The translations under genes were made by a program, and so were the position numbers. This document shows positions 1,537 to 1,913 of a stretch of 10,356 bases of DNA, piece by piece. Where the stretch lies: assembly GCA_030622125.1 (NCBI GenBank), contig JAUXGM010000078.1, positions 1 through 10,356 of the forward strand, given 5' to 3'. Position 1 is the stretch's first letter. Each line of letters begins with the position of its first letter. The notes below the pieces were generated by a model that worked only from the letters and a program-made list of their open reading frames with translations, was not told the origin of the DNA and searched no databases. The stretch comes from a bacterium (lineage in GTDB: Bacteria > AUK180).

Positions 1537-1584
1537 AGTATTTTCTTTCTTCACCTGCTTTCTAATTGTCCATTATATTCAACT

Positions 1585-1619
1585 GTCATTCAGAGCAATT
1601 GAAAATTGCGTAGGAATCT
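1585..1619 (+). repeat. Intergenic repeat module 2 (GTCATTCAGAGC - hairpin - GGAATC)
   Basis: The same 12-mer, GTCATTCAGAGC, lies at 1585-1596. It runs into a 6-bp stem, GCAATT at 1595-1600 and AATTGC at 1604-1609, with a GAA loop. GGAATC follows at 1613-1618. The stem sequence differs from module 1 while the flanks are kept, as expected for a repeat family whose fold is preserved. GC-richer sequence continues to about 1640 and may belong to the element. From 1640 to about 1735 I see nothing beyond AT-rich spacer. Confidence 0.7.
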
Positions 1620-1772
1620 CATGGGGGACGCTGTTGCGATTATATCGGTTACATATTGTTTATTCCAAGTACACAATGAATTATACTAATATTTTGAAAT
1701 TTTGGCATAAAAACCCTAATAATTACTAAATCTTATTATATTGGTTTCTTTGGCAATTTTTCTACTTTTTCT

Positions 1773-1913
1773 ACCACCGTCCCCATTTTTAGAATGACGG
1801 GAAGGAAGGGGTTCTGAATGACCTCGTATCAAATATCAAGTACGGGGTAAACTCCATATAAATAAAAAATCAAACAAAAAAAAATATCAATTCACAAAAT
1901 CAACCACCGTCCC
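1773..1913 (-). mobile_element. Candidate MITE-like insertion with 11-bp direct repeats in the tonB 3' end
   Basis: ACCACCGTCCC occurs at 1773-1783 and 1903-1913 and matches exactly 11 bases, no more. The 119 bases between them contain inverted members of the local repeat family: GAATGAC at 1792-1798, GTTCTGAATGAC at 1811-1822, and CGGGGTAAACT, shared with 1513-1523. The inner ends are loosely inverted: ATTTTTAGAATGA from 1785 rightward, versus ATTTTGTGAATTGA read on the minus strand from 1900 leftward. Removing the 119 bases plus one repeat copy extends the tonB frame from GTVV into EKVEKLPKKPI and a TAA at 1738..1736. That fits a target-site duplication at an insertion. No transposase is present. 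Chance is not excluded. Confidence 0.45.

Follow-up and report, generated by a model that had tools for sequence, protein, structure and literature searches.

The 3' end of tonB in the window, that is, in the whole stretch of 10,356 nucleotides that was analyzed, raises the question of why an 11-bp word, ACCACCGTCCC, is present there twice, with exact matches at 1773-1783 and 1903-1913. A sequence-only reading had explained the pair as the target duplication of a small mobile element, placed at 1784-1902 and assigned to the local GTCATTC repeats, whose insertion would have given TonB a new and shorter C-terminus. Based on the current evidence, it is very probable that the locus instead contains elements of the TIRYT kind, which are associated with Y1 (HUH) transposases, and their non-autonomous copies (MITEs), all ending in a core followed by boxes, and that one MITE lies beside a solo end which forms the TonB tail.

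The repeated word and the elements around it

The word ACCACCGTCCC, or GGGACGGTGGT on the other strand, is the terminal core of a family of the TIRYT/TIRtron type and not a duplicated target. The genome of the window (2.08 Mb in 192 contigs) contains 37 exact copies, compared with 1 copy of the reversed control and about 0.07 copies expected by chance from the base composition of that genome. The earlier argument that such a pair is unlikely to be accidental thus stands, but because the word is a genome-wide repeat, its double occurrence is uninformative on target duplication. Inverted pairs, GGGACGGTGGT...ACCACCGTCCC, are common among the copies in this genome, while pairs in the same orientation outside the window are spaced by 32, 81, 298 and 769 bp, with no fixed value. 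An 11-bp target duplication was rejected, since the 11-mer is an element terminus and adjoins unlike boxes at its two copies in the window; no direct repeat of this length was found that occurs only at this site and is lacking in the element. Among the element ends there was likewise no consistent duplication of a fixed dinucleotide, the outer bases being mostly T, followed by A or G. A search of the literature for the core sequence returned nothing relevant.

Table 1. Features of the window between the dispersed repeat at 1560 and the start of tonB
Feature	Position	Strand	Remarks
Another dispersed repeat, GTCATTC...GGAATCTCAT	1560..1622		Abuts the MITE; 63/63 identical to C176:249-311
Non-autonomous element (MITE), 161 bp, inverted ends	1624..1784		Related interiors in C183 and C50
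Left, diverged MITE end, GGGGACGCTGTTGCGATTATATCGG	1624..1648	+	Sequence comparison
Right MITE end, GGGGACGGTGGTAGAAAAAGTAGAAAAA: core and two tandem GTAGAAAAA boxes	1757..1784	-	Same as the end of the autonomous element in C141
Repeat copy 1, terminal core GGGACGGTGGT	1773..1783	-	Exact match
Spacer between the two element ends	1785..1893		Not a mobile element of this core-box family
tonB, 226 aa	1887..2567	-	TonB_C complete (PF03544, 2-79 of 79; residues 142-218)
Solo end: core GGGACGGTGGT and one GTTGATTTT-type box	1894..1913	-	20-bp exact matches elsewhere
Repeat copy 2, terminal core GGGACGGTGGT	1903..1913	-	Exact match

Judged from their boxes, the two copies in the window are same-orientation ends of different elements (Table 1). 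One core is followed by GTAGAAAAA twice and the other by GTTGATTTT, so the two cores do not flank one insertion. The first copy belongs to a short, non-coding element with inverted ends that is present in several copies, as is typical of MITEs. Its interior is 81% identical to C183:3580-3708 and 77% identical to C50:24116-24236, and the C183 relative, at 162 bp, matches it in overall length to within 1-2 bp and likewise ends in CACCGTCCCC. On single-strand folding the termini of 1624-1784 pair with each other, with a z of only -1.55 for the overall fold. The second copy belongs to the solo end, which is identical over 20 of 20 bases at two places in C91 and at one each in C182 and C29. The second box of this end is degenerate (GTGAATTGA), and a partner end for the core at 1913 was not found.

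The DNA between the two ends has a different character. GTCATTC-type repeats are present within 1784-1902, as had been noted, and 1807-1856 is a GTCATTC/CGGGGTAAACTCC unit, but the GTCATTC units constitute a different dispersed repeat and not the inserted element. The copy of the 1560-1622 repeat in C176 runs on differently past CAT. The weak inverted ends described for 1784-1902 are not element ends: unlike 1624-1784, neither this segment nor 1773-1914 pairs end to end on single-strand folding. Pieces of 1784-1902 also recur elsewhere without flanking ACCACCGTCCC, and both observations led to the rejection of this segment as the element. Although the two exact direct 11-mers lie in the same tonB frame, insertion of a 119-bp GTCATTC-family element with duplication of its target has next to no probability, given the copy number of the word, its unlike boxes, the recurrence of the pieces, the variable spacing of same-orientation pairs, and a predicted tail that appears in no orthologue.

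A further alternative is that both same-orientation ends are the remnant of one larger or nested element, extending for example from 1913 to about 1624, with the second end copied at 1784. Hybrid elements with unlike boxes at their ends do exist, both in C29 and in the window itself (1624/1784); an end in C57 has 70 bp in common with the 1784 end but a changed first box, and clustered ends also occur at C17 and C175. The MITE at 1624-1784 stands alone, however, in that same-length relatives such as the one in C183 are bounded at both ends, and the DNA at 1785-1893 is an unrelated dispersed repeat. A single remnant therefore seems improbable, and the preferred reading is that of a MITE and a separate solo end.

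Two other observations concern repeats. GTCATTC...GAATGAC and CGGGGTAAACTCCATATAAA units are widespread in this genome and end sharply at CTCAT (in the window at 1488, 1585, 1807-1856 and 2742). In addition, a minus-strand protein with Schlafen/AlbA_2, HATPase_c_4 and winged-helix domains is apparently split into ORFs at 1095-1349 and 223-1041 (84 and 272 aa), with a frame break near 1041-1140, and a tail repeat, CACTTTTTCTCAAATT..CAATCAATAAAATCTGAA, flanks it, at about 120-150 and again at about 1400-1435.

The C-terminus of TonB

The minus-strand frame through 1783 does read GTVVEKVEKLPKKPI up to a TAA at 1738..1736, as the sequence-only reading had it, and this peptide had been taken for the original end of TonB. 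The TAA falls inside the MITE, and the peptide is a translated GTAGAAAAA-type element end. A KVEKLPKKP-type tail was found neither in the paralogue encoded on C68 nor in any of the four orthologues compared, and KVEKLPKKP was accordingly rejected as the ancestral tail.

Past the YKFxL motif, the protein of the window reads YKFSL and GTVVDFVN and the C68 paralogue reads YKFLL and EGITIEEE, eight residues each, while the four orthologues from the same family have comparable, unrelated tails, with about eight variable residues past this motif. The C-terminus has thus not become shorter. The last eight codons of tonB, GTVVDFVN, and the stop consist of element-end and adjoining sequence. Because the tails are equally long but unrelated, it appears that a short variable tail gave way to the element end without any change in length. 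From these comparisons we infer that a solo end interrupted tonB just past the TonB_C domain and supplied the last eight residues. What survives of the earlier proposal is that a family of small mobile elements is present and that its end forms a new tail; the element itself is 1624-1784 rather than 1784-1902.

About eight other long genes (at least 160 codons) in the same genome run into an element end and stop there, for example one on C73 that ends in ...KSGTVVAKVAKL and a stop, indicating that a tail derived from an element end is a recurrent outcome. The C-terminus of a core gene can come from the end of an element, and a plausible inference of target duplication is corrected in the process. 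As separate observations, the 3' end of the gene upstream of the C172:3630 transposase (L103, 609) contains an in-frame solo end, GGGACGCCCCTCAACTATCTCAACTTT, and at about 1348-1378 of locus L094 (C181:16877) an element end seems to be the source of the start codon and of MKNQQNQPPSL in a TusA/SirA-like gene.

Transposases, MITEs, and tandem boxes

Inverted core pairs of 159-196 bp are MITEs (C34, C40, C45, C50 and C91), and pairs of 927-1040 bp (C73, C140 and C141) contain transposase genes of 280-299 aa. The latter encode a Y1_Tnp domain (PF01797; E values of 2e-14, 4e-12 and 6e-12), and the NHxH motif of the HUH signature is kept in the transposase alignment. The C-terminus of the C140 transposase matches HTH_23 (2.8e-6) and, weakly, Bac_DnaA_C (0.017), and C-terminal HTH matches in the C73 and C141 proteins are only weak; matches to the NCBIfam model REP_Tyr_transpos are below its curated cut-off. 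The box types of the MITEs, TTAGTTTG, TAGAAAAA and TTGCAAAA, are those of the three autonomous elements of the same genome, and Y1 (HUH) transposases with the same ends probably move the non-autonomous copies. At the level of the bacterial class, 20 of 24 loci have a terminal inverted repeat (TIR) score of at least 12, with long TIRs and no REPs flanking the gene. A further transposase subfamily, at C172:3630 (L103), has the core GGGACRCMC and boxes CTCRCNNTT.

The family of the window belongs to the TIRYT/TIRtron kind (TnpA-REP subclass 2.1). TIRtrons, or TIRYT, were named for RAYT-like genes located between inverted repeats with GGGGWSAS, a sequence stated for the majority of TIRs but not all, and occur along with dispersed TIR families (Di Nocera et al., 2013, PMC3733652). 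Most TIRYT fall in TnpA-REP subclass 2.1 and carry Bac_DnaA_C/HTH domains; it was doubted that these DnaA-like domains read the TIR, the core being unlike a DnaA box, and a new target was considered possible (Quentin et al., 2018, PMC6006769). As in those elements, a Y1/HUH gene of about 280 aa with a C-terminal HTH like Bac_DnaA_C or HTH_23 is bordered here by inverted repeats starting with GGGGAC, and TIR copies that lack the gene are dispersed, singly or in pairs, in the genome. The core of the window, GGGGACGG, differs from GGGGWSAS at position 7, while that of a relative, GGGGACAG (G006:C12), fits. Tandem 9-bp boxes and the re-use of sites are not in the text of either paper, although the TIRs in Figure 9 of the 2013 paper may show a similar pattern.

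Similarities to other systems are more limited. The short copies resemble MITEs in being 117-196 bp long, free of genes, and bounded by inverted ends in common with an autonomous element, but no consistent target duplication was observed, and they are related to Y1 rather than DDE transposases. Like REP/REPIN sequences and the in-frame palindromic elements of Rickettsia (RPE), they are dispersed near the 3' ends of genes and some are read into proteins. They differ in that their ends consist of a core and direct 9-bp repeats and not of a GTAG/CGTC-tagged palindrome, and in that it is the end of the element that becomes coding sequence. A separate repeat on C15, C27, C84 and C103, GGGACATTACCTCAACTTTCTGATTTTTAAAGTTGAGGTG, in which one of the boxes is inverted so as to form a hairpin, resembles a REP assembled from the same components.

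Two 9-bp boxes follow the core directly and in tandem, and an element usually has one box word at its two ends. In the genome of the window the words seen are GTAGAAAAA, GTTGCAAAA, GTTGATTTT, GTTAGTTTG/ATTAGTTTA and TTTCACTTA, and they differ between subfamilies, elements and genomes, with hybrids such as the 1624/1784 element and that in C29 having unlike boxes at their two ends. Ends with GTGAAGAGT are confined to the genus of G001 and G004 and ends with GTAGAAAAA are present in G000, G001, G002 and G004, while exact GTTGATTTT ends occur in G000 only. The 9-bp period is marked: among 47 distinct ends of the window's genome, lag-9 identity amounts to 0.52 compared with 0.32 after shuffling (z of 11.3), and the remaining lags reach a z of at most 1.1. 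For 20 transposase elements, picked by their inverted match alone in the window's genome and in six related ones, lag 9 gives a z of 6.8 with no other lag near it. Such boxes were rejected as a universal feature because 41 TIRYT loci of other phyla give a z of -1.9 at lag 9; the box architecture thus belongs to this bacterial class.

DnaA domains bind units of 9 bp. Since the boxes have the same length, they offer a concrete candidate recognition site for the DnaA-like HTH domains of the transposases, one that is open to a direct binding test. Among 19 elements, a partial Mantel test for covariation of HTH and box sequence gives a P of 0.047, but the catalytic domain performs equally well (P of 0.038).

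Element sites in sister species

Sites with and without elements were compared between G001 and G004, which are sister species of one genus, other than that of the window. For five sites (S1-S5), the joined flanks of an element were searched in the other genome with a query free of element sequence, and a sixth (S6) was found by alignment of loci. S1 is occupied in G004 by a transposase element of 894 bp and in G001 by only the 11-bp core, ACCAATGTCCC; one flank is 98.3% identical over 1024 bp, the other 95.9% identical over 1085 bp. At S2, a 117-bp MITE corresponds to only a 13-bp core, GGGACGCTGGTTA, and the unusual C of that copy is found in both genomes. S4 has a MITE in one species and the core GGGACGGTG, followed by unrelated sequence, in the other, with its flanks on two contigs. 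At S3, a 117-bp MITE stands at a shared right-hand junction in each species, one with GTTAAGAGT and the other with GTTGACAGT; homology extends to the left flank, which is more divergent. S6 has transposase elements with different boxes, TTCTGTTTT and TTTAGTTTT, at one locus, where the flanks are largely 95-99% identical and the gene is nearer 88%. S5 is weaker, with a GTTGAATTT MITE and a TTTCACTTC-type end nearby in G004.

The comparison of these sites suggests that the core stays in place while an element is absent or replaced, and that it may have a target role of the IS200/IS605 type. The differences come mostly from one box subfamily, and they fit both loss that leaves the core and insertion at a core. 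In IS200/IS605 elements, the left cleavage site is a short target sequence that is retained at the site. As with IS608 of that family, Y1/HUH chemistry is expected and a short target-like sequence stays behind. The elements described here differ from IS608 in having true inverted repeats and boxes in place of subterminal hairpins, and the retained sequence is 11-13 bp long and may come from either end.

A likely mechanism can be proposed. The HUH/Tyr domain would cut single-stranded DNA at the cores, and the C-terminal HTH of the transposase would read the 9-bp boxes. On loss of the element, one core would remain at the site and could be used again, comparable to the retained left target of IS200/IS605. 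We tentatively propose, with rather less than even confidence, that in the Y1-transposase elements of this bacterial class the fixed core is a target which is left behind and re-used, that the fast-evolving boxes define the acting transposase by way of its DnaA-like HTH, and that the core is recurrently joined to host proteins, TonB being one case. If so, sites would persist as elements of different specificity succeed one another, and retained cores and replacement at the same site would hint at how single-strand transposons with inverted ends pick and re-use their sites.

Random deletion of elements, with the cores at the sister sites as a by-product and no target role for the core, is a serious though not favored possibility. 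Deletion can leave pieces of an element behind, one of the sites is also missing 5 bp of flank, and S1, S2 and S4 all fit such an origin. Against it, the core is at the exact junction in all four clear sites, and the presence of two 117-bp MITEs with unlike boxes at one junction is unexplained by random deletion.

A different kind of composite was observed in the window's genome. At C17, C29, C181:4895 and C189 (L062, L253, L093 and L096), a hairpin unit, CCCGCACCTT...TGCGGGATAAA, separates the core GGGACGGTGG from the TTGCAAAA boxes in several copies, which gives the impression of one repeat inserted into another at an identical position.
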